The notes under the pieces were generated by a model. It saw only the letters and a list, made by a program, of their open reading frames with translations, was not told where the DNA came from and ran no database searches. Positions 40,085 to 61,995 of a DNA stretch of 64,000 nt are shown here, piece by piece. The translations under genes and the position numbers were made by a program. Each line of letters opens with the position of its first letter. The stretch's first letter is position 1. Source of the stretch: Acetobacterium woodii (lineage in GTDB: Bacteria > Bacillota > Clostridia > Eubacteriales > Eubacteriaceae); assembly GCA_016213825.1 (NCBI GenBank), contig JACQZP010000019.1, positions 1 through 64,000 of the forward strand, written 5' to 3'.

Positions 40085-42463
40085 ATGTCTGAATGTGAAA
40101 AAACCAATTATATTGGTAAAAGTGTCCCAAGAATTGACGCATTAGAAAAAGCAACCGGTAAAGTGAAGTACTTTGAGGATTACCAGATTCAATACAGAGA
40201 TTTGTTGCATGTAAAGGTTTTACGCAGCCCGCATGCCCACGCTAAAATTGTTAGTGTCGATGTGAGCGCCGCAGAGGCGTTGCCAGGGGTGGCAACAGTT
40301 GTCAAAGGAAGTGATCCGGATCTGCCATGGTCTGACATTCCTTATGGTTCCAGTTATTATGGAAATCCTGCTAAAGATGAAGTAATCTGGGCTGGACAGG
40401 CAGTTGTGGCGGTAGCAGCAGAGTCAATTGAAATTGCTGAACAAGCGTTAGAATTAGTCAAGGTTGTCTATGAAGAGCTGCCTTATGTCACTGACCAGCA
40501 TATTGCGATCAGACCAGATGCTCCCGAGGTAATTAGTCCAGAGTTAGGATTTGCTGCCGGATATATGGGTTTTCAGCCTGAAGGTCCGAATGTTGCCGGA
40601 AGCTATAAAATGACTCACGGTGATGTTGACAAAGCTTTTGCTGAAGCTGATGTAATCGTTGAAGGCGAATATCAGGCGAATAAAAAATCGACATCACAAA
40701 TTGAATGCAATGGTTGTATCGCAGAGTATCAACCCGATGGTGTTGTTAAGCTAATCTCTAATGGGATGGGCGTTCATGGGGTGCTGAAAAAACACTTACT
40801 GACCATGTATCCACAGCTGACGGCATCCACCCTTAGAGTTATTCAGCCGGTTACTGGCGGTAGTTTTGGGAATCGTCTATTCCCGACGATAGAGCCACTG
40901 GCAGTACTGATGACACTAAGAACAAAAAGACCATGTTCTTATGTTTTGACAAGAAAAGAAATGTATACCTCATCACCATCCAATTGGCCGGTTTTTACCA
41001 AGTTAAAATTAGGTGCAAAAAAAGATGGAACCATTATTGCTGAAGATTTCTATCTGGTTGAAGATGCCGGAGCCCAAATCAGAGGCTATTATGATGGTCG
41101 ATTATCAGCGTCTGGTTTAATGTGTGTCTACAACATTCCGAATGTTCGTTGCGATTCTTATGGTGTCAGAACAAACACCATGCCGTGTGCTCCCTATCGC
41201 GGTCTTGGCGTTCCAGAATCTGAATGGGCAATGGAAAATTTACTGGATGAGCTTGCTGAAAAACTGAATATGGATCCGCTTGAGCTGCGCTTGAAAAACA
41301 TCATCAAAAAAGGCGAATGCAATCCTTACGGAGAAAAAGTTACCAGTATTGCCATTGGAAAATGTTTAGAGGCTGTCGCTGAAGGAATCAAAATTAATGA
41401 ACCCTGTCAGCAGGATGATGGCCCATGGAAATATGGGAAAGGAATTGCCGCCGGCGGAAAGCAGAACACCCCGCTTGGTCGATCCGAAGCAGACTGTTTA
41501 ATTCATAGCGACGGCAGTGTTGAAATCCTGGTCAGCTGTGATGAGCAGGGCATGGGCGCCCAATCAGCACTCCGACAAATGGCAGCGACAGAATTACAGA
41601 TTGATATTGATCGCGTTAAAATGACCCGTTCAGATACTGCTGTTACCCCATATGATAATTTTGGAGCCTCCAGCCGAACAACTTATACAACTGGGAATGC
41701 CGTTATTATTGCTTGTCAGGATGCCATTGACCAATTAAAAGAAGCCGCTGGCCGTGAAGTTGGCCTGGCAAAAAAACAGATTACAATTAAAAACGGAAAA
41801 GCTTATGTTGTTGGGTCAGACGTTGAAGTCATTGATATTAAAGATTTATTCAAACCCTTTGATTTCTTTACCCAACAAACCTGGGGACTGTTACAAGGAA
41901 CACCGGTAAGAGGCCGAGGCGTATTCTGTCCTGCTCCAGCCGTGCCATGGTTTGGTCCTGGTCATGAAGATGGCCGAACCCCAAGAATGTGGAATTGGTA
42001 TCAGTACAGTGCGTTTGGTGCCGAAGTTGCCGTTAATGTTGAAACCGGACAAATCAAACTGCTGAAACTATTCAGTACCGCAGATACCGGAAACCCGATT
42101 AATCCGAAACTGGTTGAAGGTCAGATCGATGGCGGTGTCATCATGGCACTTGGATTCTCAACTTTAGATTATCATATGTTTGAAGATGGAAAAATGATTA
42201 ATGCCAACATGTCAGATTATCGTTTGCCTACAGTCTTAGAAACACCGCTTCAGAAAAACTTTATGCGAGCAATTCTTCCCGATCCATTACCTGATGGTCC
42301 GTTTAATGCAAAAGGCTGTGCCGAATCAATGATGATTCCGATTGGGCCGGCAATTGCAGCAGCAGTATATCAGGCAGTTGGGGTACGACCAAAAGAAATG
42401 CCGATGACTGCTGAACGAATATTGAAGTTGATTAAAGATAAGGAGGCTAATGATGCAAAATAG
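40085..42463 (+). CDS. Molybdenum hydroxylase large subunit (xanthine dehydrogenase family)
   Basis: The 792-residue subunit carries the molybdenum cofactor domains of the xanthine/aldehyde oxidase family: PRIDALEKATGKVKYFEDY at the N-terminus, the GGSFGNRLFPT cofactor loop (about 258), CAPYRGLGVPESEWAME (about 370) and, near the C-terminus, KGCAESMMIP with the invariant catalytic glutamate (about 752). Such enzymes hydroxylate a C-H bond of aromatic rings or aldehydes with water as oxygen source. The ATG at 40085 has TTGGAGG before it. Small and FAD subunits follow with overlapping or touching genes. The large-small-FAD order and the downstream cofactor genes suggest a complete enzyme. Substrate is unknown; not purine-specific by context. 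Confidence 0.9.
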   Translation: MSECEKTNYIGKSVPRIDALEKATGKVKYFEDYQIQYRDLLHVKVLRSPHAHAKIVSVDVSAAEALPGVATVVKGSDPDLPWSDIPYGSSYYGNPAKDEVIWAGQAVVAVAAESIEIAEQALELVKVVYEELPYVTDQHIAIRPDAPEVISPELGFAAGYMGFQPEGPNVAGSYKMTHGDVDKAFAEADVIVEGEYQANKKSTSQIECNGCIAEYQPDGVVKLISNGMGVHGVLKKHLLTMYPQLTASTLRVIQPVTGGSFGNRLFPTIEPLAVLMTLRTKRPCSYVLTRKEMYTSSPSNWPVFTKLKLGAKKDGTIIAEDFYLVEDAGAQIRGYYDGRLSASGLMCVYNIPNVRCDSYGVRTNTMPCAPYRGLGVPESEWAMENLLDELAEKLNMDPLELRLKNIIKKGECNPYGEKVTSIAIGKCLEAVAEGIKINEPCQQDDGPWKYGKGIAAGGKQNTPLGRSEADCLIHSDGSVEILVSCDEQGMGAQSALRQMAATELQIDIDRVKMTRSDTAVTPYDNFGASSRTTYTTGNAVIIACQDAIDQLKEAAGREVGLAKKQITIKNGKAYVVGSDVEVIDIKDLFKPFDFFTQQTWGLLQGTPVRGRGVFCPAPAVPWFGPGHEDGRTPRMWNWYQYSAFGAEVAVNVETGQIKLLKLFSTADTGNPINPKLVEGQIDGGVIMALGFSTLDYHMFEDGKMINANMSDYRLPTVLETPLQKNFMRAILPDPLPDGPFNAKGCAESMMIPIGPAIAAAVYQAVGVRPKEMPMTAERILKLIKDKEANDAK

Positions 42464-42950
42464 AGAGAATTATATCGAAGTTCTGTGTGAAGTTAACGGA
42501 GCACCGGTCAATTTGTACGTTTCACCAGACCGAACGGTGGTTGATGTATTAAGAAACGAATTGGCGCTAACCGGAACAAAACAAGGATGTGATGATGGCA
42601 ACTGCGGTGCCTGTACCATTCTGGTTGATGGTAAAGCCGTAAAAAGCTGTTCAATGCTGATTGGACAAATTCGCAATAAAAAAGTGATCACGATTGAAGG
42701 GGTCAGTGATGGCGATGTTCTACATCCGGTACAACAGGCTTTTGTTGATCGTTGGGCTGTTCAATGCGGCTTCTGTACACCGAGTATGATTTTAACAGCG
42801 ATTGCGATTCTAAATGAAAACCCTAATGCTGATGAAGACGAAATTCGTGAAGGATTACACGGAAATTTATGCCGATGTACCGGTTATGTAAAAATTGTTG
42901 AAGCAATCGAAGTTGCACGAGATCAGATCAATGCTGGAGGTGCGAACTAA
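42453..42950 (+). CDS. Molybdenum hydroxylase 2Fe-2S subunit
   Basis: The 165-residue subunit has a plant-ferredoxin-like domain with cysteines in KQGCDDGNCGACT (about 43-55) and a second at KSC, and a four-helix 2Fe-2S domain with CGFCTPSMILTA (about 105) and GNLCRCTGY (about 140). It passes electrons from molybdenum to FAD. Two in-frame ATG codons overlap the end of the large subunit gene; that at 42453 is best spaced from AGGAGG, but 42450 is possible. Confidence 0.92.
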   Translation: MQNRENYIEVLCEVNGAPVNLYVSPDRTVVDVLRNELALTGTKQGCDDGNCGACTILVDGKAVKSCSMLIGQIRNKKVITIEGVSDGDVLHPVQQAFVDRWAVQCGFCTPSMILTAIAILNENPNADEDEIREGLHGNLCRCTGYVKIVEAIEVARDQINAGGAN

Positions 42951-43819
42951 TGAAATTTAATTCATATTATGAACCAAATACCGTTGATGCGTGTGTTCAG
43001 ATTTTAAGCGAACAGGGTTCAGATGCAAAATTACTGGCGGGTGGAACCGATCTGGTTATTCGTATGAGAAGCCGAGTAATTAAGCCAAAAACAGTCGTGA
43101 GTTTAAATGCTGTTCCTGAACTAAGTGAAGTAACTTTAAAAGAAGACGGCCTTTATATCGGCGCCATGGCTCGCCTGATGGATGTTTCCAAATCGGAACT
43201 GTTAACCGGCGCCTGGAAAATTATAAAAACGGGCGCTGGAAATGTCTCCAGCATGCAAATTCGAAACAATGCCACGCTTGGCGGAAATACCTGTAATGCT
43301 TCCCCAAGTGCCGACACCGTCCCAGGTCTGGTTGTTTCCGGAGCCATTGCCAATATTGTTGGTAAAAATGGTAACAGAAGTGTTCTGCTGGAAGAGTTCT
43401 TTACCGGCCCGGGCAAAACCGTATTATCTGATGACGAGATCTTAGTGAGTTTTAAAATCCCTAAATACGCGGATAAAACCGGCGCTGTTTACAAGAAATA
43501 TTCAATCCGTGGCGATACCGATATCGCAATTATCGGTGTTGCCGGGAAAATTACTTTAAATGATCAGGGTGAAGTGGCCGATGTGAAAATCGCTCTTGGC
43601 GGTGTCGCCCCAACGGTTATCCGGGTTCCCAAAGCGGAAGCCTTATTAACAGGTAAGAAACTGACAGCTGAATTAATTGAAGAAGCAGCAGTGATCGCTT
43701 CAGAGTCATGTACACCGATAACCGATGCTCGCGCTACCAAAGAGTATCGAACAGAAATGGTCAGGGTATGGGTTCGACATGTATTAACCGATGCGGTACA
43801 GGAAGCTCAAAAAAACTAA
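42950..43819 (+). CDS. Molybdenum hydroxylase FAD subunit
   Basis: The 289-residue subunit has the FAD-binding LLAGGTDLVIRMR (about 28-40) and QIRNNATLGGNTCNASPSAD (about 100-120) motifs of the CoxM/XdhB type, and a C-terminal CO-dehydrogenase flavoprotein domain. It hands electrons to NAD or another carrier. Its start overlaps the previous stop (TAATG). A terminator follows at 43827, so the three subunits may form a separately controlled part of the operon. Confidence 0.92.
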   Translation: MKFNSYYEPNTVDACVQILSEQGSDAKLLAGGTDLVIRMRSRVIKPKTVVSLNAVPELSEVTLKEDGLYIGAMARLMDVSKSELLTGAWKIIKTGAGNVSSMQIRNNATLGGNTCNASPSADTVPGLVVSGAIANIVGKNGNRSVLLEEFFTGPGKTVLSDDEILVSFKIPKYADKTGAVYKKYSIRGDTDIAIIGVAGKITLNDQGEVADVKIALGGVAPTVIRVPKAEALLTGKKLTAELIEEAAVIASESCTPITDARATKEYRTEMVRVWVRHVLTDAVQEAQKN

Positions 43820-43910: not shown

Positions 43911-44759
43911 ATGGAGAAACTAACACCTAATGTTTATACAGAAACAAAGATTCGGGGGTGCAACCCCAGTATTGTTTTCACAAAAGAAGGGTCAGTGTTT
44001 ATCGATAACGCCCAGTGGTTAACCAGTTTGCTTGAGATGATCGAATTCGCCGAGCAAAAAGGTTCCATTAAATACATGATTAATACCGAACCGCATATTG
44101 ACCATATTTTTGGGAATCACTGGTTTGCGGGCAAATGTCCAATTATCGGACACGAAGCGATGATCAAAGATTTTTTTCTGGTGCCGGGAGAAATGGATGG
44201 TTATGACTACTCTGTGGATGTATTAACCCGTCAAGATCCCAAAGGATTGGCACTGATGCCATCACGAGAAAACTACATCATTAATAAACCGCAAATTACC
44301 TTCACCAAAGATCTGTCGCTAAAAGTTGGCGATCATACGTTTAAACTCTACCACACCCCCGGTCATTCGGATTCACAGATTGCTGTGCATGTCCCCGAAG
44401 AAAGAACCGTATTTGTTGGCGATACTGTTTTTTCTGATTGTCAAATCTGGCTCCACTCAGCCAATATTGATGAACTGATCAACTCACTTAAGTTTATCTA
44501 TACACTGGATGTGGATTACATTGTCCCCGGACATGGACCAGTTGTTGAAAAATCATATATTATGAACCAGCTTTCATTTATTTACGAATGGATAACAACT
44601 GTTGCCAATGGCATCGAAAAAGGCTGGACTCAGGAAGAGTGTATTGCAAGGATAAGTTTTTCAGATCGATGCCCAGTGGATATTGGACAGGATGAAATGA
44701 TGGAATACATCCAACGAACAAATATCATCAAGTGTTACAACTACTTAACCCAGGGATAA
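43911..44759 (+). CDS. Metallo-beta-lactamase-fold hydrolase
   Basis: The 282-residue protein has the MBL fold. The metal-binding region reads NTEPHIDHIFGNH (about 62-74), so the first histidine of the usual HxHxDH is a glutamate; the later ligands are present in YHTPGHSDS (about 145), FVGDTVFSD (about 163) and VPGHGPV (about 208). The family covers glyoxalase II, lactonases, alkylsulfatases and quorum lactonases. AAAGGA precedes the ATG. It may hydrolyse an ester or lactone made in the pathway. The altered ligand hints at a mono-metal or iron site. Not closer than family level. Confidence 0.82.
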   Translation: MEKLTPNVYTETKIRGCNPSIVFTKEGSVFIDNAQWLTSLLEMIEFAEQKGSIKYMINTEPHIDHIFGNHWFAGKCPIIGHEAMIKDFFLVPGEMDGYDYSVDVLTRQDPKGLALMPSRENYIINKPQITFTKDLSLKVGDHTFKLYHTPGHSDSQIAVHVPEERTVFVGDTVFSDCQIWLHSANIDELINSLKFIYTLDVDYIVPGHGPVVEKSYIMNQLSFIYEWITTVANGIEKGWTQEECIARISFSDRCPVDIGQDEMMEYIQRTNIIKCYNYLTQG

Positions 44760-44804: not shown

Positions 44805-45755
44805 ATGAAATTGGATTCAATTAATAATGTTTCGATTATCGGAACCGGCATGATCGGTGCCAGTATGGCCGTACTGTTTACCGGAAATGGCTATAAAACT
44901 ACCATACTGGCATATAACGACGCCGAAATAGAAGCCGGAAAACAACGTTATCAGGCATGTTTTGAAGATTTGGTTCAAAAAAAGCTGGTCACTGAAAAAC
45001 AATATCAAGCCTGCGAAAAACTGTTGACGATAACAACAGACTATCAGGACATTTCGAATACCGAACTGATTTTTGAATGTGTGGTTGAAAATCTGGCGGT
45101 TAAACATAGCGTCTATCAAGCGATTGAAGAAAACTGTCCCAACTTTAAAGCCATTGCATCATCGACATCAGCGATTTCAGCAGATGATCTTGCCAAAGGC
45201 TTGAAGCAAAAAGAAAAGCTGGTTGTGGCTCACCCTTGGAACCCCCCCCACCTGGTTCCTTGTGTGGAGTTGGTGCCAAGCCAATGGTCAGCAGCAGGTG
45301 TCATCGATGCTATTTATGAATTTTTGGAATCGGTGGGACGAAAAGTTGTGGTCATGAAAAAAGCCGCTCCCGGATTTATCGGCAACCGCCTGCAACATGC
45401 GCTATATCGGGAAGCCGTTCACATGGTGGAACAGGGCATTGCCTCACCGGAAGATATTGACAAAACCTTAAAATACAGTTTTGTGCCCCGGTACACATCC
45501 ATCGGCATTTTTGAACATTTTGATTATGCCGGGTTGGATATGATCGTCAGCATTGATGACTACCTCTTTCCGGATCTTTCAAATGCTGACAAAACTCAGG
45601 ATTACATCCGGTCGCGCTTTGAAAAAGGCGATCTCGGCCAGAAAACCGGTAAGGGAGTTTACGACTGGTCCAAGGTGGATATGGACGAATTCCGGATGAA
45701 AGCCGCAAAACCATATTTTGAGTTTTTCAACTGGAGTTTACCAGAAGAAGACTAA
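44805..45755 (+). CDS. 3-hydroxyacid dehydrogenase (carnitine/gulonate dehydrogenase type)
   Basis: The 316-residue protein has the NAD site IGTGMIGASMAVLF (about 10-23) and the 3-hydroxyacyl-CoA dehydrogenase fold. The catalytic region is VAHPWNPPHLVP (about 140-151), the HPxNPP form seen in L-carnitine dehydrogenase and L-gulonate 3-dehydrogenase rather than the HFFNP of CoA-specific enzymes. It therefore likely oxidises a free 3-hydroxy acid to a 3-keto acid. A domain with PGFIGNRLQHALYREAVHM follows. AAAGGAGG precedes the ATG. It is next to the E1-E2-E3 complex and could feed it through decarboxylation to a keto-alcohol. Confidence 0.82.
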   Translation: MKLDSINNVSIIGTGMIGASMAVLFTGNGYKTTILAYNDAEIEAGKQRYQACFEDLVQKKLVTEKQYQACEKLLTITTDYQDISNTELIFECVVENLAVKHSVYQAIEENCPNFKAIASSTSAISADDLAKGLKQKEKLVVAHPWNPPHLVPCVELVPSQWSAAGVIDAIYEFLESVGRKVVVMKKAAPGFIGNRLQHALYREAVHMVEQGIASPEDIDKTLKYSFVPRYTSIGIFEHFDYAGLDMIVSIDDYLFPDLSNADKTQDYIRSRFEKGDLGQKTGKGVYDWSKVDMDEFRMKAAKPYFEFFNWSLPEED

Positions 45756-45792: not shown

Positions 45793-46758
45793 GTGATATC
45801 AAAAGAAAGAAAATTTTGGATCTACGAGATCATGAATAAAATCAGATATTTTGAATTAAAGGCCCTGCGATTGTTTGAAGAAAATAAACTGCGTGGATCG
45901 GTTCATTTATATGCTGGCGAAGAAGCTGTTGCTGCCGCCGTTTGTTCCCAATTGACGGATGATGATTATATCACCAGTACCCATCGGGGTCATGGCCATT
46001 GTATTGCCAAAGGCGCTGAGCTGGATAAAGCCATGGCCGAATTAATGGGCAAGGAAACCGGCTACTGCAAAGGCCGCAGCGGTTCCATGCACATTGCCGA
46101 TTTCACCAAGGGCAACCTTGGGGCCAACGCCATTGTCGGTGGGGGCATTCCGATAGCAACCGGAGCGGCGTTGGCAGCCAAGCTTCAGAAAAACGATAAG
46201 GTCGCCGTTTCATTCTTTGGGGATGGGGCTTCCAATGAAGGAACCTTCCATGAAAGTTTGAATCTGGCAGCTGTCTGGAAACTGCCGATTATCTTCGTTT
46301 GTGAGAATAATGGCTTCGGCATCTCGGTACCGGTTGCTCAGTCAACTTCCGTTGAAAACATCAGCGATCGTGCTGTCGGCTATGGGATACCGGGAGTAAC
46401 CATTGACGGAAATGATGTTTTTGCTGTTTATGAAGCCTTTGAAACCGCAGTTAAACGGGCTAAATCAGGCGATGGTCCGACTTTGATTGAATGTAAAACT
46501 TATCGAACCCTTGGTCATTGGACCGGAGATCCCCAAACCTATCGGGATAAAAAAGATGTTGAAATGTGGCGAGATACAAAAGACCCCATTCAATTGTTCA
46601 AAAAACGCCTGGTTGATGCTGGCGACTTCACTGCCGCAGAATTAGACACGGTTGAAGAAGCCGCTAAAGCGGAAGCTGATGCCGCCGCCGAGTTTGCGAT
46701 TAACAGTCCTAACCCGGATCCTGCCGACGTCATGGACGATGTTTTCTACGAAGCTTGA
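45793..46758 (+). CDS. Acetoin/pyruvate dehydrogenase-like E1 alpha subunit
   Basis: The 321-residue subunit has the E1-alpha fold with the N-terminal RGSVHLYAGEEAVAAAVCSQ (about 32-50), the ThDP-binding GDGASNEGTFHESLNLAAVW region (about 145-165) and the NNGFGISVPVAQSTSV loop (about 176). A GTG start follows AAAGGAG. Length and the YAGEEA form resemble AcoA of acetoin dehydrogenase more than branched-chain enzymes, but a 2-oxoacid substrate cannot be excluded. Genes for beta, E2 and E3 follow in order, so the complex is complete. No AcoR-type activator is in the window. Confidence 0.88.
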   Translation: MISKERKFWIYEIMNKIRYFELKALRLFEENKLRGSVHLYAGEEAVAAAVCSQLTDDDYITSTHRGHGHCIAKGAELDKAMAELMGKETGYCKGRSGSMHIADFTKGNLGANAIVGGGIPIATGAALAAKLQKNDKVAVSFFGDGASNEGTFHESLNLAAVWKLPIIFVCENNGFGISVPVAQSTSVENISDRAVGYGIPGVTIDGNDVFAVYEAFETAVKRAKSGDGPTLIECKTYRTLGHWTGDPQTYRDKKDVEMWRDTKDPIQLFKKRLVDAGDFTAAELDTVEEAAKAEADAAAEFAINSPNPDPADVMDDVFYEA

Positions 46759-46771: not shown

Positions 46772-47752
46772 ATGAGTAAAAAAACTTACGCAACAGCCAT
46801 TCGCGACGTCATTGCAGAAGAAATGCGTCGAGATGAAAATGTTTTTGTTATGGGAGAAGATATTGAGTTACTGGGTGGTATTTTTGGATGTACCCGGGAT
46901 TTATATAAAGAATTCGGCACCGATCGGATCAGAAATACGCCGATATCGGAAGCAGCTATGGTCGGAGCCGGTGTTGGTGCTGCCTGTGCCGGCATGCGTC
47001 CCATCGTCGAACTGATGTACATGGACTTTACCTTAGTCGCCGCCGATCAGATTATTAACCAGGCTGCCAAAACCCGCTATATTTTTGGAGGGAAAGCAAA
47101 GATTCCCTTGGTCATCCGAGGACAACAGGGAATTGGGCGGGGCAACGCCGCCACCCACAGCCAGAGTCTGGAAACCATTTTTATGCACTTTCCCGGGATC
47201 AAGGTTGCCTGTCCGTCCAATGCCGCCGATGCCGCCGGTTTGTTAAGAACCGCCATTCGGGATGATAACCCGGTAATGTTCTTTGAACATAAGGCTCTCT
47301 ATGCTTCTAAATTCGAAGTGCCGGATGATCCGGATTTCTGTGTGCCTTTCGGTAAGGCTGAGATTAAGCGAACCGGTAAAGATGTCACCATCGTGGGTTC
47401 ATTGCTCTATGTCAGCAGAGCCCTGGAAGCGGCAGCTGAACTGGAAAAAATAGGGATTGATGCCGAAGTGATTGACCCCCGAACGATGGTACCTTTTGAT
47501 ATGGACACCATTATCGAATCGGTTAAAAAAACCGGAAAACTGGTTGTCGTTCATGAAGCCCATAAGGTAGCTGGTTGGGGAGCAGAAGTTGTTTCAGAAG
47601 TAGTTGACGGCGCATTTAAATATTTAGATGCCGCACCGATTCATCTTGGTGCCAAAGCCTGTCCGCTTCCTTTTAATATTGAATTGGAAAATGCGGTTGT
47701 ACCCAGTGTGCAGCAGATCGTTGAAGCAGCAAAAAAAGTGTGTTATCGATAG
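46772..47752 (+). CDS. Acetoin/pyruvate dehydrogenase-like E1 beta subunit
   Basis: The 326-residue subunit begins KKTYATAIRDVIAEEM and contains FVMGEDIELLGGIFG, RIRNTPISEAAMVGAGVGAA and the transketolase C-terminal domain (VIDPRTMVPFD, GAEVVSEV). It forms the active site with the alpha subunit, holding ThDP. AAAGGAG precedes the ATG, 13 bases after the alpha stop. It is about as long as AcoB. Confidence 0.9.
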   Translation: MSKKTYATAIRDVIAEEMRRDENVFVMGEDIELLGGIFGCTRDLYKEFGTDRIRNTPISEAAMVGAGVGAACAGMRPIVELMYMDFTLVAADQIINQAAKTRYIFGGKAKIPLVIRGQQGIGRGNAATHSQSLETIFMHFPGIKVACPSNAADAAGLLRTAIRDDNPVMFFEHKALYASKFEVPDDPDFCVPFGKAEIKRTGKDVTIVGSLLYVSRALEAAAELEKIGIDAEVIDPRTMVPFDMDTIIESVKKTGKLVVVHEAHKVAGWGAEVVSEVVDGAFKYLDAAPIHLGAKACPLPFNIELENAVVPSVQQIVEAAKKVCYR

Positions 47753-47774: not shown

Positions 47775-49112
47775 ATGGCAGAATTTATAATTATGCCCAA
47801 ACAGGGTCTCCAGATGACCGAAGGAACCATTATGGAATGGTTGGTTGGAGAAGGAGAAGAAGTCATTGCCGATGCTCCTTTATTCGAAATGGAGACTGAT
47901 AAATTAACCATTACCATTGACGCCAGTGCCGGTGGTACCTTGTTAAAAATAATTCATGGGGCCGGAGCCGTGGTTCCGATCACTGAACCGATTGCCATTA
48001 TCGGTGAAAAAGGCGAAGATTTTTCAGGCTTATTAAATTCCATCGGAGCACCGGCAGCCCCATCAGTGGTTGCTGAAAGTGTGGAACCAGTGCAGACTGA
48101 GGAAGCATCGGTCGGAATAGCCATCGTTAAAGCACCACGAACCGGAAGAGTTTTTGCATCACCCCGGGCTAAAATGCTGGCTGAAGAAAAAGGGATTGAT
48201 GTTGCCGATATTGATGGTTCTGGACCCGAGGGGCTGATCATTGAAAAGGATGTCCTGGATTATGTACTTAATCCGGCACAAAAAACGGCCGCAACGCCAC
48301 TGGCCAGAAAAGTTGCTGAGCTGGAAAATATTGATATCAATGAGATTCAGGGATCGGGCGTACGCAATAAAGTGTTAGCAGAGGATGTGCGTTCATCGGC
48401 ATCAGTCAGTCAAACACCGATCCAGCTGGTTCAGCAACTTGATGAAGAATTGATTCCCATCAAAGGGATGCGAAAAATTGTCGCAGAACGTATGAAACAA
48501 AGTCTTGGTGAAATGGCCCAGGCCAACCATCGCATCACCGTCGATATGACCAATTCGGTGGCGTTAAGAGAACAGTACAAAGCAGTGGGCAGAAAAGTCA
48601 GTTACAACGATATCGTGCTGCGCTGTGCGGCCAAAGCTTTAACCGAATTCCCAATGATGAATTCCTCCTGGACCAGCGCCGGCATTGTGCTTAAGAAATA
48701 TGTGAATATGGGTATAGCCGTAGCTATTGAGCAGGGTTTAATTGTTCCTGTTATTAAAAATATTCACCTAAAATCGTTGGATCAAATTTCTAAAGAATCC
48801 AGTGAACTGGCCACAAAAGCAAAAGAAAACAGACTTCAGCCGGAAGACTATAGCGGCGGAACCTTTACCGTTTCCAATCTGGGGATGTTTGATATTGACG
48901 GCTTCACTGCTATCATCAACCCACCAGAAGCCGGCATCCTGGCAGTTGGAAAGCTAGCCAAACAACCAGTGGTAATCGGTGATGAAATTGTTATCCGGAT
49001 GATGATGCAGCTCAGCCTGACTTATGATCATCGTACCGTTGATGGCGCGCCGGCAGCTCAGTTCCTGAAACGGATCAAAGAATTACTTGAAAATCCAATG
49101 TTGCTGATTTAA
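47775..49112 (+). CDS. Dihydrolipoamide acyltransferase (E2)
   Basis: The 445-residue protein has an N-terminal lipoyl domain with lysine 43 in METDKLTITIDAS, then two tandem peripheral-subunit-binding segments (ASPRAKMLAEEKGIDVADID at about 128-147 and ATPLARKVAELENIDINEI at about 172-190), and the acyltransferase domain from about 215 ending in DHRTVDGAPAAQFL (about 420), which holds the catalytic His. Two binding segments in a row is uncommon. It receives the acyl group from E1 on lipoate and passes it to CoA. Lipoylation genes lie downstream at 61045-64000, consistent with this complex being their target. Confidence 0.9.
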   Translation: MAEFIIMPKQGLQMTEGTIMEWLVGEGEEVIADAPLFEMETDKLTITIDASAGGTLLKIIHGAGAVVPITEPIAIIGEKGEDFSGLLNSIGAPAAPSVVAESVEPVQTEEASVGIAIVKAPRTGRVFASPRAKMLAEEKGIDVADIDGSGPEGLIIEKDVLDYVLNPAQKTAATPLARKVAELENIDINEIQGSGVRNKVLAEDVRSSASVSQTPIQLVQQLDEELIPIKGMRKIVAERMKQSLGEMAQANHRITVDMTNSVALREQYKAVGRKVSYNDIVLRCAAKALTEFPMMNSSWTSAGIVLKKYVNMGIAVAIEQGLIVPVIKNIHLKSLDQISKESSELATKAKENRLQPEDYSGGTFTVSNLGMFDIDGFTAIINPPEAGILAVGKLAKQPVVIGDEIVIRMMMQLSLTYDHRTVDGAPAAQFLKRIKELLENPMLLI

Positions 49113-49125
49113 GGAGAATGACTTT

Positions 49126-50505
49126 ATGAAATATGATGTTGCAGTTTTAGGAGGAGGCCCGGGGGGATATGAAGCGGCAATTCGCTGTTCCCAGTACGGT
49201 CTCAAAACAGTGCTCATCGAAGCAAGAGAACTTGGCGGTACCTGTTTAAATCGTGGTTGTATTCCAACCAAAGCCTTGCTTCATGGTGCCGAATTTTACG
49301 ATGAAGCAAAGGGTGCCCAGGAGTTTGGCGTGTTTTTTGAAAATATCGCATTTGACTATGAAAAATTGGCAATCTATAAAGATAAGATCGTAAGCAGATT
49401 AAGAAAGGGCATTGAAGGACTTGAAAAAGCCCATGGCGTAACCGTCATTAAGGGCTTTGGGGTACTAAAAAATGCTAATGAAATAGCCGTAAATGGAGAA
49501 ACGGTTGTGGCCGATCACATCATTCTGGCCACCGGTTCCGCCCCCTTTTTGCCACCCATTCCAGGCGTCGACAACAAATCGGTCATGACCAGCGATGAAG
49601 TTCTGGAAATGAAACAGTGTCCGGAAAGCCTGGTGATTATCGGCGGCGGTATCATCGGCATCGAATTTGCTACCTTGTATGCATCGCTGGGAAAAAAGGT
49701 GACGGTTATCGAAATGCAGTCGGATATTCTTAAGGGAATTGACAAGGAAATTGTTAAGGAACTGTCCCAGATTCTTAAACGAAAAGGGGTTCAGATTATT
49801 GCTGGCGCCAAGGTCACTGGGATCGAAGAAGCGGAAGAAATCACCGTAAACTATGAAAAAGACGGACAGCCTAAAAGTGCTGCCGGAACCTGCTGCATTG
49901 TCAGTGTTGGCCGAAAAGCGCAAATCGATCAGATTGGTTTGGATGCCGTTGGCATTAAGCGCAATGGCTCATTTATTGAAGTTGATGCGTATCTCAGAAC
50001 CAACATTCCTAACATCTATGCCATTGGTGACATCACCGGAAAAATTCAGCTGGCCCATGTTGCCACAAAACAGGGGATGGTTGCCGCCGAAAGCATTATC
50101 GGCAAACAGAAGCAGATGAAATATGAGGTAGTACCTTCCTGTCTTTACACCAATCCGGAAATTGCCTGGATCGGACTGAGCGAAGAGGAAGCAATCAAGG
50201 CCGGCAAGAACATAAAAATCGGACGCTATGGTGTCGGCGGCAATGGCAAGTCCAGTGTCATGGGACAAAGCAAAGGACTCCTTAAACTGGTCTGTGACCA
50301 CGTCACCGGCGAGGTTTACGGAGCTCAGATTATGGCTCCCAGAGCCACTGATATGATCGGTGAAATTGCCGTAATCATGGAATGTGAAGGCACCATTGAA
50401 GAATTATCAGACACCATTCATCCCCATCCCACCGTTTGCGAAATTATCGTGGAAGCGGCTCACGATGTGGAAGGGCTGTGCTGCAATGCACCGCCAAAGA
50501 AATAA
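49126..50505 (+). CDS. Dihydrolipoamide dehydrogenase (E3)
   Basis: The 459-residue flavoprotein has the FAD site GGGPGGYEAAIRCS (about 9-22), the redox disulfide C40/C45 in GGTCLNRGCIPTKAL, the NAD site GGGIIGIEFA (about 174), and the C-terminal HPHPTVCE with the His-Glu pair. It reoxidises the E2 lipoyl group with NAD. TTAAGGAG precedes the ATG. It completes the E1-E2-E3 complex. Confidence 0.93.
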   Translation: MKYDVAVLGGGPGGYEAAIRCSQYGLKTVLIEARELGGTCLNRGCIPTKALLHGAEFYDEAKGAQEFGVFFENIAFDYEKLAIYKDKIVSRLRKGIEGLEKAHGVTVIKGFGVLKNANEIAVNGETVVADHIILATGSAPFLPPIPGVDNKSVMTSDEVLEMKQCPESLVIIGGGIIGIEFATLYASLGKKVTVIEMQSDILKGIDKEIVKELSQILKRKGVQIIAGAKVTGIEEAEEITVNYEKDGQPKSAAGTCCIVSVGRKAQIDQIGLDAVGIKRNGSFIEVDAYLRTNIPNIYAIGDITGKIQLAHVATKQGMVAAESIIGKQKQMKYEVVPSCLYTNPEIAWIGLSEEEAIKAGKNIKIGRYGVGGNGKSSVMGQSKGLLKLVCDHVTGEVYGAQIMAPRATDMIGEIAVIMECEGTIEELSDTIHPHPTVCEIIVEAAHDVEGLCCNAPPKK

Positions 50506-50524: not shown

Positions 50525-51553
50525 ATGAAAAAAATTAAAGTAGGAGTAGCCGGATATGGCGTCATTGGCCAGAGACTGGCAGACGCAGTGGCACTGCAAG
50601 GAGATATGGAATTGGTGGGGGTTGCTGATTTAGCACCAACCCTGTCAATCCGGGCATTAAGAGAAAAAGGGATGCCTTATAACTTGTTTTTAGTGGACAT
50701 GAACCGAAAACCAGAGTTCGAAGCCCTGGGAATTCCCATTGCCGGATCTTTTGAAGACCTGGTCGATCAGGTTGATATTATGCTGGATTCTTCACCAGGC
50801 GGTGTGGGCGTTAAAAACAAAGAACTTTATGCATCAAAAGGTGTGAAGGCTATTTTCCAGGGGGGCGAAAAGAATTCAGTCGCCGATGTATTTTTCCATG
50901 GCTATGCCAATTACGAACAAGGGCTGGATCAGGATTATTTGAAACTCACCAGCTGTAATACCACCGGCTTGATTCGGGCCGTTGATTGTCTGGATCGCAA
51001 CTGTGGCGGGGTGGAACGGGTTGCTATTACCATTATCCGTCGGGTTGCCGATCCTGGTGATTATCATCGTGGTTTAACCAATGCTCTGCAGGTAGACAAG
51101 GCTCCTTCCCATCAGGCGGTGGATTTAATGACCATCATGCCTCATGTTGAAGCCACCGGCGTGCTGGTTCATACACCAGTAACTCATGGTCATATTATCA
51201 CCGTACTGGCCACCGGAAAGAAAAAAATCACCAAAGAAATGGCGTTGGAAGCATTCAAAAAACATCCCCGTATTCGGGTGGTGAAAATTGATGATGGTTT
51301 CCAGGGCAATGCCTCCTTCTTCCGATATGCCCGAGATCTGGGCAATACCAGAGGCGACATGTATGAAATTGGCTTATGGGAAGACTGTATCGTCGAAAGC
51401 GGAAACGATATTATGTTTGCCATCAATATTCCTCAGGAAAGCGTCACCATTCCAGAAACAATGGATGCAGTCAGAGCCGCTACCGGGATGCAGCAAACCA
51501 GAGAAGACGGAACAGCAGCAACAAACAAATATTTGAATTGTCAATGCCGTTAA
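50525..51553 (+). CDS. Archaeal-type GAPDH-like (aldehyde, acylating-phosphate) dehydrogenase
   Basis: The 342-residue protein is homologous to type II (archaeal) glyceraldehyde-3-phosphate dehydrogenase: a Rossmann GYGVIGQRLADAV N-terminus, catalytic C144 in TSCNTTGLIR, RRVADPGDYHRG, and the C-terminal LGNTRGDMYEIGLWED. In family members the stretch after that reads SHHGPD, whose histidines help hold the substrate phosphate; here it is SHQAVD. The next loop reads HTPVTHGHI. Bacterial type II GAPDH is rare. Placed after E3 and before a PGK-like gene, it may oxidise an unphosphorylated aldehyde to an acyl-phosphate. Residue comparison was from memory of the family. Confidence 0.82.
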   Translation: MKKIKVGVAGYGVIGQRLADAVALQGDMELVGVADLAPTLSIRALREKGMPYNLFLVDMNRKPEFEALGIPIAGSFEDLVDQVDIMLDSSPGGVGVKNKELYASKGVKAIFQGGEKNSVADVFFHGYANYEQGLDQDYLKLTSCNTTGLIRAVDCLDRNCGGVERVAITIIRRVADPGDYHRGLTNALQVDKAPSHQAVDLMTIMPHVEATGVLVHTPVTHGHIITVLATGKKKITKEMALEAFKKHPRIRVVKIDDGFQGNASFFRYARDLGNTRGDMYEIGLWEDCIVESGNDIMFAINIPQESVTIPETMDAVRAATGMQQTREDGTAATNKYLNCQCR

Positions 51554-51566
51554 GGGGAGTGAGCCA

Positions 51567-52820
51567 ATGAAATTTGGAATTAAAATCTTGGATGACTTCC
51601 AATTCTCCGGAAAAACGGTTCTCCTCCGGGTGGATATTAACCAGCCGGTGGACAAAGAAAAAAATACCTTAAAAGATATTACGAGGATCAAAGCCTGTGT
51701 TCCGACCATCCGGGAATTGTCGGATAAGGGTGCAAAGGTAGTGATTCTGGCCCATCAGGGCAGTGATATCGAATATGAAAACTTTTATACCACCGAACCT
51801 CATGCAAAAGTGTTAACCGAACTGCTTAATCAGGAAGTGAACTTTGTTGAGGATGTCTGCGGACCCACCGCCAGAGCAGCGATTACAGCTTTGAATGATG
51901 GCGAAATTCTGTTATTAGATAATGTTCGTTTTGTATCTGAAGAACAGACCTTGTTTGAAACGAATTTAAAATTAAGCCACGAAGACCAGGCTAAAACCCT
52001 ACTGGTGAGAAAACTGGCATCCCTGGCGGATCTATATGTCTGTGATGCTTTTGCGGCCGCCCATCGGGATCAACCTTCCCTCTGCGGTTTTGAACAGGTA
52101 CTGCCTTCAGCAATGGGGAGATTGTTTGAAGAAGAATACAGTGTCCTGTCCGAAATTACCGAAAATCCCGGCAGACCATCGGTCTTTGTTTTAGGCGGCG
52201 CTAAAATATCTGACGCCTTTATCATGATGAATTCGGTGCTGGGTAAAGGAATCGCCGACACGGTTCTGGCCGGTGGTTTAGTGGGAAACATCATGTTGCT
52301 GGCAAAAGGATTTGACATCGGAGCAAGCTCCAAAGCCTTTATTGAAAAAAGAGGGTTTAATAATTACATTGAGGATGCCAAAGAACTGCTGGAAAAATAT
52401 GGGACGATGATTGAACTGCCTACTGATTTAGCCTATCTGGATGATGGGGTCAGAAAAGAAATGAAACTGTCTGATTTGCCGGTTGATGAAATGCTGGTGG
52501 ATATCGGCCACGAATCAACCCAAAAATTTCAGGAGATCATCCTTGGCGCCAAAACAGTTTTCACCAATGGACCGATGGGGATTTTTGAAGAAGAAATCAC
52601 CGAATACGGCACCAAAAATGTCTGGGACGCCCTGGGAAAAACCGAAGCTTACACCGTTATCGGCGGCGGTGACAGCATTACGGCCACCAACAAATATGAT
52701 TTAAGCGAAAAAATTGATTATATCTGTACCGGCGGCGGTGCCCTGATCCGGTTTTTAACAGGCGAAACCCTACCGGTTGTCAAAGCATTGATGCATGGTT
52801 CAGCGATAAAGGAAAAATAA
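51567..52820 (+). CDS. Archaeal-type phosphoglycerate-kinase-like protein
   Basis: The 417-residue protein shows the PGK fold with RVDINQPV (about 22), DNVRF (about 117), AFAAAHRDQPS (about 160), VLGGAKISD (about 199), the hinge TNGPMGIFE (about 327) and GGGDSITA (about 355), and is most like archaeal PGKs. In those the substrate-phosphate arginine or lysine lies in AHQGRP or HQGKP; here the site reads AHQGSDIEY, with no basic residue. The kinase and ATP-binding parts look intact. With the GAPDH-like gene next to it, it could turn an acyl-phosphate lacking a sugar-phosphate group into acid plus ATP. Confidence 0.85.
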   Translation: MKFGIKILDDFQFSGKTVLLRVDINQPVDKEKNTLKDITRIKACVPTIRELSDKGAKVVILAHQGSDIEYENFYTTEPHAKVLTELLNQEVNFVEDVCGPTARAAITALNDGEILLLDNVRFVSEEQTLFETNLKLSHEDQAKTLLVRKLASLADLYVCDAFAAAHRDQPSLCGFEQVLPSAMGRLFEEEYSVLSEITENPGRPSVFVLGGAKISDAFIMMNSVLGKGIADTVLAGGLVGNIMLLAKGFDIGASSKAFIEKRGFNNYIEDAKELLEKYGTMIELPTDLAYLDDGVRKEMKLSDLPVDEMLVDIGHESTQKFQEIILGAKTVFTNGPMGIFEEEITEYGTKNVWDALGKTEAYTVIGGGDSITATNKYDLSEKIDYICTGGGALIRFLTGETLPVVKALMHGSAIKEK

Positions 52821-52865: not shown

Positions 52866-54038
52866 ATGGATTATGCACAGGAATCATTAAAACTGCACTA
52901 CCAATGGAAAGGGAAACTGGAAGTCAATTCCAAGGTTTCCGTAAACAATAAGGAGGATCTATCCCTGGCTTACACCCCGGGGGTAGCCCAGCCTTGTCTT
53001 GAAATTCAAAAAGATATCAGCAAAAGTTATGAACTAACCGGACGTTGGAATACCGTTGCTGTCATCAGTGACGGAACCGCGGTGCTAGGACTAGGTGACA
53101 TTGGCCCGGAAGCAAGCATGCCAGTAATGGAAGGGAAATGCGTTTTGTTCAAAGAATTTGGCGATGTGGACGCAATTCCCCTGTGCATCCGTTCTAAAGA
53201 TGTGGATGAAATTGTTCAAGTGGTCAGTCTCCTGGCCGGAAGCTTTGGCGGCGTGAATCTTGAAGATATCGCCGCTCCGCGATGCTTTGAAATCGAGAAA
53301 CGACTCAAAGAAATCTGCGATATTCCCATTTTTCATGATGATCAGCATGGCACCGCAGTGGTCACCCTGGCAGCAGTGTTAAACGCTGCGAAATTAACCG
53401 GCAAAGATGTCAAAACCATGAAAGTGGTAATGAACGGTGCTGGATCGGCGGGGATTGCCATTGCTAAGCTGCTGTTGCAGGTAGGTGTTGAAGATATAAC
53501 CATGTGTGACCGGGTTGGTACCATTTATGACGGACAGGAAGGTCTGACCCCGGACAAGCAGGAAATTGCGCGAGTAACCAACAAAGCCGGAATCAAAGGG
53601 AGTCTTGCCGATGCGATGAAGGATGCTGATGTGTTTATTGGTGTATCCGCACCCAATGCCGTCACCCCAGAAATGGTTCTGTCTATGAAAAAAGATCCTA
53701 TTTTATTTCCGATGGCCAATCCCACGCCAGAAATCATGCCGGATATTGCCTTAACGGCCGGAGCAGCAGTTGTTGGAACCGGTCGAAGTGATTTTGCCAA
53801 TCAGATCAATAACGTTTTAGCCTTCCCGGGAATTTTCCGAGGGGCACTGGATGTCAGAGCCAGCGATATCAATGACGCCATGAAAATCGCGGCAGCCTAC
53901 GCCATTGCCGGTTTGGTAACCGATAAAGAGCTCCGTTCAGATTTTATTATCCCGAATGCTTTTGATCCCCGCATTAAAGACGCAGTCGCCAAAGCGGTGG
54001 CAAAGGCTGCCCAGGAAAGCGGTGTCAGCCGCATCTAG
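52866..54038 (+). CDS. NAD(P)-dependent malic enzyme
   Basis: The 390-residue protein has the malic enzyme signature LHYQWKGKLEVNSKV at the N-terminus, YTPGVAQPC (about 38), VNLEDIAAPRCFEIE (about 134), HDDQHGTAVVTLAAV (about 157) and the NAD site GAGSAGIAIAK (about 190). Family members decarboxylate malate to pyruvate. AGAGAGG precedes the ATG. It lies after the PGK-like gene and before a LarA-type racemase, so a D- or L-malate, or related hydroxyacid, may be converted to pyruvate here. Confidence 0.9.
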   Translation: MDYAQESLKLHYQWKGKLEVNSKVSVNNKEDLSLAYTPGVAQPCLEIQKDISKSYELTGRWNTVAVISDGTAVLGLGDIGPEASMPVMEGKCVLFKEFGDVDAIPLCIRSKDVDEIVQVVSLLAGSFGGVNLEDIAAPRCFEIEKRLKEICDIPIFHDDQHGTAVVTLAAVLNAAKLTGKDVKTMKVVMNGAGSAGIAIAKLLLQVGVEDITMCDRVGTIYDGQEGLTPDKQEIARVTNKAGIKGSLADAMKDADVFIGVSAPNAVTPEMVLSMKKDPILFPMANPTPEIMPDIALTAGAAVVGTGRSDFANQINNVLAFPGIFRGALDVRASDINDAMKIAAAYAIAGLVTDKELRSDFIIPNAFDPRIKDAVAKAVAKAAQESGVSRI

Positions 54039-54054: not shown

Positions 54055-55305
54055 ATGAAAATAGAGATAGCAATTGGAAAAGAAAAACAATCGGTTAATA
54101 TTCCAGAAAAAAATCTGGCAGCAATCTTAACACCAAATCCTATCGAAGTGACAACAACAGGTGAAGACGCCGTCTGTGCAGCCCTTCAAAACCCCATCGG
54201 GACACTCCCTTTAAAAGAGATCGTCAGACAGGGTGAAAAGGTCGTAATTATTACCAGTGATATCACTCGGCCACTGCCGTCACATGTGGTATTGCCACCA
54301 ATTCTTCATGAACTGAAAAAGAAGGGCATCAAGTGTGAAGACATTACCATCGTCTTTGCTCTGGGCAGTCATCGAAAACATACCGCCGAAGAAATGAAAA
54401 AACTGGTCGGTGATTACTTCTATTCAAACATTCGTTGTGTGGATGGCGACCCGAAAGATTTTGTGAATATGGGCAAAACAAAACATGGTACCCCAGTGGA
54501 TGTAACCCGGATTGTGGCAGAAGCAGACCGACGCATTTGCCTGGGTAATATTGAATACCATTATTTTGCTGGTTACAGTGGCGGTGCCAAGGCAATCATG
54601 CCCGGCGTTTCCACCCGTGCCGCCATTCAGATGAATCACAGTTGCATGGTTGATCCACTGGCGGTGGCAGGAAAAATTGACGACAATCCAGTGCGACAAG
54701 ATCTGGAAGAAGCAATTAATTACTGCCCCATCGACTTTATTGTCAACGTTATTCTCGATGAGAAAAAGAATGTTATCCATGCAGTGGCCGGACATTATAT
54801 CGAAGCCCATCGGGAAGGCTGTAAATTCCTGGATCAATTGTACAGTAAACCGATTGATGCCCTGGCAGATATTGTGATTGTCTCCCAGGGAGGCGCACCC
54901 AAAGATTTAAATCTCTATCAAACCCAGAAAGCCCTGGATAATGCTAAACACGCGGTCAGAGATGGCGGCATCATCATTCTGGTGGGTTCCTGTGAAGAGG
55001 GCTTTGGCGAAGGGGTATTTGAAAAATGGTTATTGGCAGCAACTGATTCCCAGTCCTTAATTGAACGGATCAAAAATGATTTTCAATTAGGAGGACATAA
55101 GGCTGCAGCCATTGCCATGGTTCTGGAAAAAAGCGAGATCTTCTTTGTTTCAAAAATGGAACAGGATGTGGTCCAATCCATCTTTATGAAGCCCTACATT
55201 ACTGTTCAGGGAGCTTTAAAGGCAGCCTTTGACAAACTGGGTCACGATTGTAAAGTCCTGGTAATGCCCCATGGTGGCTCAACTCTGCCAATTTTAAAAC
55301 AATAG
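54055..55305 (+). CDS. LarA-type nickel-pincer hydroxyacid racemase/epimerase
   Basis: The 416-residue protein matches the LarA family (DUF2088): SDITRPLPSHVVLPPILHEL (about 70-89), ALGSHRKHTAEEMKKL (about 102), and the NIEYHYFAGYSGGAKAIMPG block (about 163-182) that holds the histidine and the lysine that carries the nickel-pincer cofactor in lactate racemase. LarA members epimerise lactate, malate, 2-hydroxyglutarate, gluconate and others. Adjacent malic enzyme suggests a malate-like substrate. LarB, LarC and LarE, needed to make the cofactor, are not in the window. The ATG at 54055 follows GGGAG, 16 bases after malic enzyme. Confidence 0.85.
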   Translation: MKIEIAIGKEKQSVNIPEKNLAAILTPNPIEVTTTGEDAVCAALQNPIGTLPLKEIVRQGEKVVIITSDITRPLPSHVVLPPILHELKKKGIKCEDITIVFALGSHRKHTAEEMKKLVGDYFYSNIRCVDGDPKDFVNMGKTKHGTPVDVTRIVAEADRRICLGNIEYHYFAGYSGGAKAIMPGVSTRAAIQMNHSCMVDPLAVAGKIDDNPVRQDLEEAINYCPIDFIVNVILDEKKNVIHAVAGHYIEAHREGCKFLDQLYSKPIDALADIVIVSQGGAPKDLNLYQTQKALDNAKHAVRDGGIIILVGSCEEGFGEGVFEKWLLAATDSQSLIERIKNDFQLGGHKAAAIAMVLEKSEIFFVSKMEQDVVQSIFMKPYITVQGALKAAFDKLGHDCKVLVMPHGGSTLPILKQ

Positions 55306-55376: not shown

Positions 55377-55394
55377 TGTGAAAGAGGTAACAAA

Positions 55395-57342: not shown

Positions 57343-57372
57343 AATCGATTAAGATTAAAAAGGAGAAGAACA

Positions 57373-61044: not shown

Positions 61045-61995
61045 ATGATGAAGTATGTTAATAGTAAAAATAATAGTGTTCATTACAATCTTGCCGTAGA
61101 AGAGTATATTTTTAATAACATGATGGATGATGATTTTTTGCTTTTGTGGGTGAATGATCCCTGTATTGTGATCGGCAAGCATCAGAATATTTTTGAAGAA
61201 GTCAATTGCAAAGAGATCCCAAAAAATGGAGTGACAGTAACACGGCGACACTCTGGTGGAGGAACCGTTTTTCATGACAACGGCAACTTGAATTTTACAT
61301 TCATCACCGATTATCATCCTGATCGTTTCTCAGGATATGATGAATTTCTCAGTCCAATCATTAAGATTCTAAACGAAATGGGGATAGCGGCTGAAAAAAG
61401 TAAGGTTTGCGATATTGCCATTGGTGATAAAAAAATATCAGGAAATGCACAATCGATTAAAAAGAACCGCGTGCTTCATCATGGTACGCTTCTTTTTGAT
61501 TCGGATTTGGATGCTTTACGGGCGATACTCAAACCAGCTGAAGGGGAATTTAAATCTAAAGCTGTCAAATCCGTACGAAGCAGTGTCACCAATATCGTTG
61601 ATCATCTCGGTGACAAAAAATTGGATTTTGATGGGTTTAGAGATCGTATTCTCAATTCTTTTTTCGAAAATGAAATTGATGAGGTCAAGCTTTTAGAAGC
61701 AGATATTAAGCAGATTCGGGAACTGGAGAAAACAAAATATATAACCTGGGAATGGATTTACGGTTTTTCACCGACCTTTACATATAAAAAACAGAGTGAT
61801 TTCAAAGGCCATCAAGTTGATGTGGTTCTTATCGTTGAAAAAGGAAAGATAAAAGAATGCAAATTAAAAAGCAAAACCTTATCTGTTGAAAAAATCGAAT
61901 CGCTTTTATTGGGACATCGGTATGACTATTTTGCTTTATCAGATTTATGCAGTGAAATAAAAGATTTAGAAAATTTCGCAGACTATTTATTTTAG
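61045..61995 (+). CDS. lplA: Lipoate-protein ligase A
   Basis: The 316-residue protein has the LplA signature: VNDPCIVIGKHQNIFEEVN (about 32-50), RRHSGGGTVFHDNGNLNFTF (about 69-88) and the ISGNAQSIKKNRVLHHGTLL region (about 132-151). It attaches lipoic acid to a lysine using ATP. A second ligase starts at 63166. The E2 at 47775 and the lipoyl protein at 62017 are the likely acceptors. The ribosome site is weak. Confidence 0.9.
   Translation: MMKYVNSKNNSVHYNLAVEEYIFNNMMDDDFLLLWVNDPCIVIGKHQNIFEEVNCKEIPKNGVTVTRRHSGGGTVFHDNGNLNFTFITDYHPDRFSGYDEFLSPIIKILNEMGIAAEKSKVCDIAIGDKKISGNAQSIKKNRVLHHGTLLFDSDLDALRAILKPAEGEFKSKAVKSVRSSVTNIVDHLGDKKLDFDGFRDRILNSFFENEIDEVKLLEADIKQIRELEKTKYITWEWIYGFSPTFTYKKQSDFKGHQVDVVLIVEKGKIKECKLKSKTLSVEKIESLLLGHRYDYFALSDLCSEIKDLENFADYLF

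Follow-up and report, generated by a model that had tools for sequence, protein, structure and literature searches.

We analysed a window of 64,000 nucleotides from Acetobacterium woodii (assembly GCA_016213825.1, contig JACQZP010000019.1, positions 1 to 64,000), which carries at 50525-52820 adjacent genes for a glyceraldehyde-3-phosphate dehydrogenase (GAPDH)-like and a phosphoglycerate kinase (PGK)-like protein. We consider it likely that this pair turns D-malate semialdehyde via malyl phosphate into D-malate with formation of ATP, that the aldehyde comes from inositol in many relatives, and that the last four steps of the route are kept in Acetobacterium. What was observed is which genes are present, how they are linked, which of them occur together and which residues have changed; every reaction and its stereochemistry is our inference. 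With slightly less assurance, we take this to be a natural pathway in which D-malate semialdehyde is freed by a transketolase or a lipoyl E1 complex and then feeds ATP formation, via malyl phosphate, by a GAPDH/PGK pair specific for carboxylates, probably the carboxylate counterpart of lower glycolysis for kinase-free inositol fermentation in gut and sediment anaerobes of several phyla.

In many relatives the proposed chain would start with iolG, iolE, iolD and iolB, whose products would convert inositol to 2-deoxy-5-keto-D-gluconate (DKG). A split transketolase would then shift C5-C6 of DKG to a sugar-phosphate acceptor and free C1-C4 as D-malate semialdehyde, a route that would bypass the ATP-consuming IolC step. 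With NAD+ and inorganic phosphate as cosubstrates, the GAPDH-like protein would oxidize this aldehyde ((R)-3-hydroxy-4-oxobutanoate, OHC-CHOH-CH2-COO-), yielding malyl phosphate, and the PGK-like protein would convert malyl phosphate and ADP to D-malate and ATP. A malate racemase would turn D-malate into L-malate, and malic enzyme L-malate into pyruvate. By our own derivation, the ketose form of DKG is HOCH2-CO-CHOH(L)-CHOH(D)-CH2-COO- and matches D-xylulose 5-phosphate in configuration, CH2-COO- standing for CH2-OPO3, and a transketolase cut would leave OHC-CHOH(D)-CH2-COO-, the carboxylate analogue of D-glyceraldehyde 3-phosphate (GAP); this stereochemistry follows, by Fischer projection, from the names of the intermediates. 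D-malate is not a known substrate of malic enzyme. Since oxidation of the aldehyde would yield D-malate, the racemase would be needed, and by our reckoning the chain uses each recurrent core gene once.

Residue changes in the GAPDH-like and PGK-like proteins

The two genes encode the following proteins, each assigned by profile, residues and structural model:

50525..51553, + strand: type II GAPDH-like protein (342 amino acids), proposed phosphorylating D-malate-semialdehyde dehydrogenase
51567..52820, + strand: archaeal-type PGK-like protein (417 amino acids), proposed malyl-phosphate:ADP kinase

The archaeal-type assignment had already been made in a first-pass annotation of this DNA, and it was borne out. 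The GAPDH-like protein scored 292 bits with the type II GAPDH model TIGR01546 (cut-off, 232.9), and the four solved relatives found for it were all archaeal GAPDHs, two of them of presumed species. Its model (predicted local distance difference test score [pLDDT], 87.0) matched the fold of 1cf2 best (Z 43.5, root-mean-square deviation [rmsd] 1.6, 329 residues aligned), with 1b7g and 2czc practically tied (Z 43.1). The PGK-like protein scored 394.9 bits with PF00162, and its closest solved relative was the Pyrococcus horikoshii PGK 2cun, which its model (pLDDT 91.4) matched with Z 50.5 and rmsd 2.4 over 400 aligned residues.

Relatives of the GAPDH-like protein were encoded by 419 of 550 candidate stretches from a species collection, and the best 80 of the 419 were kept. 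These are 77-99% identical and come from Bacillota, Chloroflexota, Spirochaetota, Synergistota and Planctomycetota; a close copy (at least 95% identity) was present in 5 of 40 genomes of the window's taxonomic family, all in its genus. Residue counts include the window and cover 81 GAPDH-like and 72 PGK-like sequences (3 of the 74 loci with a PGK match yielded no full-length protein), of which 33 and 42, respectively, entered the structure-prediction alignments. Three archaeal GAPDH sequences were used for comparison, and the fourth, 1b7g, was left out.

Type II GAPDHs rely for catalysis on a Cys and a downstream His. The corresponding C144, in SCNTTGL, and H221 were kept in 81/81 sequences. 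All 81 also shared H197Q, G198A and H303P, with SHQAVD in the window where the three archaeal GAPDHs have SHHGPD; SCNTTGL and SHQAVD are just as first annotated. Position 35 is Asp in 80/81 sequences and Lys in the three archaeal enzymes, which suggests NAD as the cofactor. In the PGK-like protein, the window reads AHQGSDIEY and 2cun reads THQGKP; HQGSDIEY was found in 57 of the 72 sequences and HQGDTLDY in the other 15. The position of R65, presumably part of the 3-phosphoglycerate site, is S or D in 72/72 and Arg or Lys in none, in agreement with the earlier report of a lost basic residue. The GGGD motif (G366-D369) was invariant in the 42 aligned sequences. So were R40, R121 and R167, the equivalents of R38, R122 and R170; only one PGK substrate arginine, R65, has been lost. 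We take the changed sites of both proteins to contact the substrate phosphate. Kept in every sequence, the changes are no accident, and the pair is a distinct family found in five phyla.

Gene neighbourhoods and co-occurrence with inositol genes

Neighbouring genes were sought with named queries by tblastn (E 1e-12; query coverage of 35% or more) in flanks of up to 10 kb around the 80 GAPDH-like loci, some of which are cut by contig ends. PGK lay at 74 loci, in 70 of them on the same strand and within 250 bases of the GAPDH-like gene. LarA was present at 57/80 and malic enzyme at 36/80. Both chains of the split transketolase were found at 43 loci (N chain, 44; C chain, 43), and two or more iol genes at 36 (iolG and iolE at 38 each, iolB and iolD at 32 each); representatives of iolG, iolD and iolE scored above their curated cut-offs, and that of iolB below its own. 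E1b was seen at seven loci, and these E1 loci had no overlap with the 43 transketolase loci. At 18/80 loci no iol, transketolase or E1 genes were in reach. On a quick GAPDH tree with many weak forks, the E1 loci fell in several places among the iol/transketolase loci, and for this reason we read transketolase and E1 complex as having been repeatedly exchanged.

With malate racemase and malic enzyme nearby, together with transketolase and genes for inositol breakdown, the context points to D-malate semialdehyde as the substrate and speaks against GAP. Acetaldehyde, lactaldehyde and glyceraldehyde, the candidates of the first-pass annotation, are not favoured. The more general idea put forward there, that a phosphate-free aldehyde is oxidized to an acyl phosphate and then used to make ATP, emerges as the best reading by gene context, not by the residues on which it was originally founded.

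We further searched whole genomes, namely, those of 44 of the 80 loci and a sample of 341 drawn evenly from the window's class, in which the GAPDH-like gene alone represented the pair. Among the 44 locus genomes, iolE scored above its curated cut-off in 35, iolC in 2 and the LarAH6 malate racemase in 39. The class sample contained iolE in 26 genomes, iolC in 13 and the GAPDH-like gene in 14. The GAPDH-like gene occurred in 10/15 iolE+iolC- genomes, 0/11 iolE+iolC+ genomes and 4/315 genomes lacking iolE, and iolC was accordingly present in 0/10 of the GAPDH-like-bearing iolE+ genomes. Fisher p values were 8.7e-10 for the link to iolE and 7.2e-4 for iolC within iolE+ genomes; the sample genomes are related by descent, and these values, uncorrected for kinship, are optimistic. 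LarAH6 was above its cut-off in 12/14 GAPDH-like-bearing sample genomes (all except G321 and G332), in 0/11 iolE+iolC+ genomes and in 1/5 iolE+iolC- genomes without the GAPDH-like gene. The malate racemase thus tracks the GAPDH-like gene.

Individual genomes showed the same linkage. In five of five GAPDH-like-bearing iolE+ genomes examined later, transketolase, PGK and GAPDH-like genes formed one run; in G106, G111 and G330 this run also included the iol genes and LarA. The pair occurs twice in G182: one copy lies in an iol cluster that has no transketolase, the other beside transketolase, LarA and malic enzyme. In G395 the genes are divided between two contigs, one carrying the iol genes, malic enzyme and LarA and the other the run of transketolase, PGK and GAPDH-like genes. 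Of the three sample genomes with the gene that lack iolE, the window's own aside, G234 carries two GAPDH-like copies. Near the first are transketolase, malic enzyme and LarA; the second is accompanied by malic enzyme and LarA as well as an Asp/Glu-racemase-family gene and a gene resembling iolB that scores below its cut-off. In G321, on a short contig, PGK alone stands beside the GAPDH-like gene. Eight genomes have a second PGK type and no iol genes at their own locus. Seven of them have iolE elsewhere (L019, L023, L027, L039, L065, L076 and L081); L010 alone among the eight has no iolE.

Several observations weigh against this interpretation. SHQGPD was found in 3/3 plasmid-borne bacterial type II GAPDHs examined (L098-L100), and the His-to-Gln exchange alone is therefore not special to the family. 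R65 may be dispensable in PGK: the structure matches of the PGK-like protein include the yeast PGK R65Q structure 1qpg, an enzyme that we take to be active. PGK was not found at 6/80 loci, three of which (L013, L025 and L058) have kilobases of flank, nor was it in reach of the GAPDH-like gene in G332, which lacks iolE. Neither LarA nor malic enzyme was in reach at 21/80 loci, some of them contig-cut. At the thresholds used, 9/44 locus genomes and 4/14 GAPDH-like-bearing sample genomes, the window's own included, have no iolE; iolC is present as well in 2/44 locus genomes, and five iolE+iolC- sample genomes have no GAPDH-like gene. Compared with human and split transketolase (human numbering), the operon enzyme keeps E366 and R474 in 43/43 sequences, with H416D and D424N in all 43, R318K in 42 and S345C in 34. 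We assume that these residues have substrate-site roles, and an Asp in place of His at 416 does not readily fit a substrate of negative charge.

The plasmid enzymes that share the His-to-Gln exchange also have Asp at the cofactor position. After this plasmid control, residue evidence alone was dropped as proof. Taken by themselves the residue changes prove nothing, and they carry little weight as an argument unless gene context is added.

Other gene arrangements were seen in the same survey. Where transketolase is missing, an Asp/Glu-racemase-family gene (PF01177; 63-74% identical) adjoins the GAPDH-like and PGK-like genes (L010, 9284-9955; L050, 9305-9979; L065, 8-658; L101, 6945-7604). At L053, genes for transaldolase-like and IolM-like dehydrogenase proteins (3101-5219), both below their family cut-offs, lie upstream of an E1/E2/E3-GAPDH-PGK-LarA run. 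Genes for independent phosphoglycerate mutase (iPGM) and HAD-family proteins, present at 19/80 and 17/80 loci, recur upstream of the iol-GAPDH run in rumen Clostridia (L018 and similar loci). In G206 (C1:1935609-1936625), a GAPDH-like frame contains one in-frame TAG, with a partial LarA match nearby and a full LarA elsewhere, and may represent a decayed copy or read-through. Two of three examined iolE+iolC- genomes without the GAPDH-like gene (G116, G159 and G240) carry within their iol cluster a gene of the transaldolase family (G116 and G159; L111, 7910-8986, and L109, 9862-10941; 66% identical to each other). This suggests that inositol breakdown without the kinase also has a variant based on transaldolase, in parallel with the sulfo-TAL pathway.

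The Acetobacterium operon and alternative explanations

The window's genome (3.94 Mb) has Acetobacterium species as the closest named relatives for the GAPDH-like gene. Directly upstream of the pair lies a 2-oxoacid dehydrogenase-type complex, as first annotated, and the operon runs on the + strand from three molybdenum hydroxylase subunits through hydrolase, hydroxyacid dehydrogenase, E1 alpha, E1 beta, E2, E3, GAPDH-like and PGK-like genes to malic enzyme and LarA. Besides the pair, the features are as follows:

40085..42463, + strand: large subunit of a xanthine-dehydrogenase-type molybdenum hydroxylase (no NCBIfam match reached its cut-off, the best being 4-hydroxybenzoyl-CoA reductase alpha and XdhA)
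42450..42950, + strand: presumed molybdenum hydroxylase 2Fe-2S subunit (open reading frame [ORF]; tblastn matches in 4/80 loci)
42950..43819, + strand: presumed molybdenum hydroxylase FAD subunit (ORF; tblastn matches in 3/80 loci)
43911..44759, + strand: metallo-beta-lactamase-fold hydrolase, possible lactonase (PF00753, 81 bits)
44805..45755, + strand: 3-hydroxyacyl-CoA/hydroxyacid dehydrogenase-like protein (PF02737/PF00725)
45832..46758, + strand: thiamine pyrophosphate-dependent E1 alpha, pyruvate dehydrogenase (PDH)/acetoin dehydrogenase type (PF00676; start codon chosen by us)
46772..47752, + strand: E1 beta (PF02779/PF02780; above the cut-off of the PDH E1 beta subfamily model NF006667)
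47775..49112, + strand: E2 lipoyl acyltransferase (PF00198, PF02817, PF00364)
49126..50505, + strand: E3 dihydrolipoyl dehydrogenase (TIGR01350, above cut-off)
52866..54038, + strand: malic enzyme, malate to pyruvate (PF00390/PF03949)
54055..55305, + strand: nickel-pincer malate racemase of the LarAH6/Mar2 type (NF052593, 576 bits, cut-off 500; best solved relative, Mar2 6d6z)
61045..61995, + strand: lipoate-protein ligase-like gene (ORF translation; name presumed)

The molybdenum hydroxylase large subunit was found at 3/80 loci, exclusively those of the Acetobacterium type. The lipoate-protein ligase-like gene probably serves E2. Judging from ORF translations, we take 55359-61007, after the operon, to hold molybdenum-cofactor-type genes and 641-32300 to hold several genes resembling those for methyltransferases and corrinoid proteins, as is typical of the demethylation systems of acetogens.

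In a search that listed matches down to E 1e-75, the window's own genome gave none for iolE, and the aldehyde in Acetobacterium therefore probably comes from a source other than inositol. Here the acetoin-dehydrogenase-like E1/E2/E3 complex may replace transketolase in cleaving a ketol, and any ketol R-CO-CHOH-CHOH-CH2-COO- would suit it; the molybdenum hydroxylase, hydrolase and dehydrogenase upstream may prepare this substrate. A 2,6-dideoxysugar acid is possible. Carnitine was considered, given the 3-hydroxyacyl-CoA dehydrogenase (HCDH)-like neighbour and a malic semialdehyde precedent, and was dropped: as we understand the enzymology, no gene for its oxygen-free cleavage is apparent in the cluster, although no search aimed at one was made.

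The ketol-cleaving role of E1 is a guess from the exclusion pattern, and the E1 family scores lean to PDH. It is accordingly quite possible, at somewhat less than even chances, that the Acetobacterium complex is a PDH acting on pyruvate from malic enzyme and that the aldehyde arises in an unseen step, a scenario that concerns only the upstream part and is compatible with the D-malate semialdehyde route. E1 alpha scores highest with PDH models, yet below both PDH E1 alpha cut-offs, and E1 beta exceeds that of NF006667. On the other side stand the mutual exclusion of E1 and transketolase loci (7 versus 43, zero overlap), the scattering of E1 loci over the weakly resolved tree, and the fact that acetogens normally use pyruvate:ferredoxin oxidoreductase.

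The remaining alternatives concern the pair itself. It is unlikely that they are ordinary GAP/3-phosphoglycerate isoenzymes serving triose flux from inositol or another sugar, with residue changes due to subfamily drift. Such a role would agree with the close fold match to archaeal GAPDH and PGK, the invariant substrate arginines and the Gln of the plasmid-borne enzymes. However, among the 58 genomes with the GAPDH-like gene (the 44 locus genomes plus the 14 of the class sample, with one genome, G075 = G379, counted twice), 56 already have a classical GAPDH above the cut-off, the window's own genome included. There the classical gap (C35:141726) adjoins a second pgk (C35:142865), and the window pair is therefore unlikely to be the cell's glycolytic pair. 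Moreover, iolC, required for triose phosphate from DKG, is nearly absent from the locus genomes, the presence of malate racemase and malic enzyme at the loci would lack an obvious explanation, and the changes are kept in all members examined. Marginally less probable still is action on another phosphate-free aldehyde (malonate or tartronate semialdehyde, lactaldehyde or glycolaldehyde), also with ATP formation; the 18 loci without iol, transketolase or E1 genes would allow it, as would feeding routes that differ between loci with an Asp/Glu-racemase-family gene and loci with a molybdenum hydroxylase, but the frequent presence in locus genomes of LarAH6, whose group has an assayed malate racemase, fits D-malate as the product. 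Finally, both reactions are presumably reversible in principle, and the pair might reduce malate to malate semialdehyde for biosynthesis; this we regard as very improbable, since the operons, with malic enzyme and iol genes, look catabolic and D35, a Lys in the three archaeal enzymes, suggests NAD.

Should the D-malate semialdehyde route be correct, it would add an ATP-making oxidation to the few known substrate-level phosphorylation steps and account for the fermentation of inositol, a common dietary phytate product, by anaerobes without iolC. It would also give the LarAH6 malate racemase a pathway role, and it would mean that the recruitment of sugar-phosphate enzymes extends from sulfonates to carboxylate analogues.

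Comparison with known systems

Among the matches listed from open-licence PubMed Central full text, no paper described this route, and a search for a paper on an archaeal GAPDH structure found none. A gap in the known inositol routes exists, since in a set of 15 inositol users taken from a species database IolJ was found in none, and an alternative aldolase domain in 7 was always fused to IolC (PMC9007349). The steps to DKG are shared with the classical myo-inositol pathway (IolG, E, D, B, C, J and A), but most carriers of the pair are without the IolC kinase, and the cleavage predicted here is between C4 and C5, whereas C3-C4 cleavage has been shown for Anaerostipes (PMC8355322). In the sulfo-TK pathway of sulfoquinovose breakdown, a transketolase cleaves sulfofructose and can hand the ketol unit to GAP (PMC9594981). 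The likeness to this enzyme (SqwGH), drawn without sequence comparison, lies in a transketolase cutting a ketose that bears another anion at the phosphate position; there it is a sulfonate, here a carboxylate, and here the released aldehyde would be oxidized with ATP formation and fully used.

Both the proposed aldehyde and the stereochemistry of its product have a parallel in carnitine breakdown, which runs from malic semialdehyde through D-malate to pyruvate and whose authors note that a racemase is needed for L-malate (PMC11353897). The baumannii malic semialdehyde dehydrogenase (MSA-DH) is, however, NAD(P)-dependent, with catalytic Cys290 and Glu256, and the excerpted text describes neither phosphate nor ATP in its reaction (PMC11353897); a D-malate dehydrogenase there takes the place of racemase plus malic enzyme here. 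Malyl phosphate and malate semialdehyde are also intermediates of a synthetic pathway, for which two activities, malate kinase and malate semialdehyde dehydrogenase, were engineered and at that time called previously unreported (PMC5481828). That pathway was built from aspartate enzymes, phosphorylates the other carboxyl group (4-phosphate) and runs in the reductive direction (PMC5481828).

Malate racemase activity has been assayed in the LarAH6 group (PMC7583248), and for Mar2 the authors judged this assayed activity consistent with gene context. The literature passages on this group give it no inositol or GAPDH/PGK role; the window LarA exceeds the family cut-off, and no difference from Mar2 was seen. 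With archaeal type II GAPDH and PGK, finally, the pair shares the fold, the catalytic Cys and His and the ATP motifs, and differs in the substrate-site changes, the NAD-type Asp35 and the operon context. On this reading, known enzyme families would act on new, carboxylate substrates in a new arrangement.

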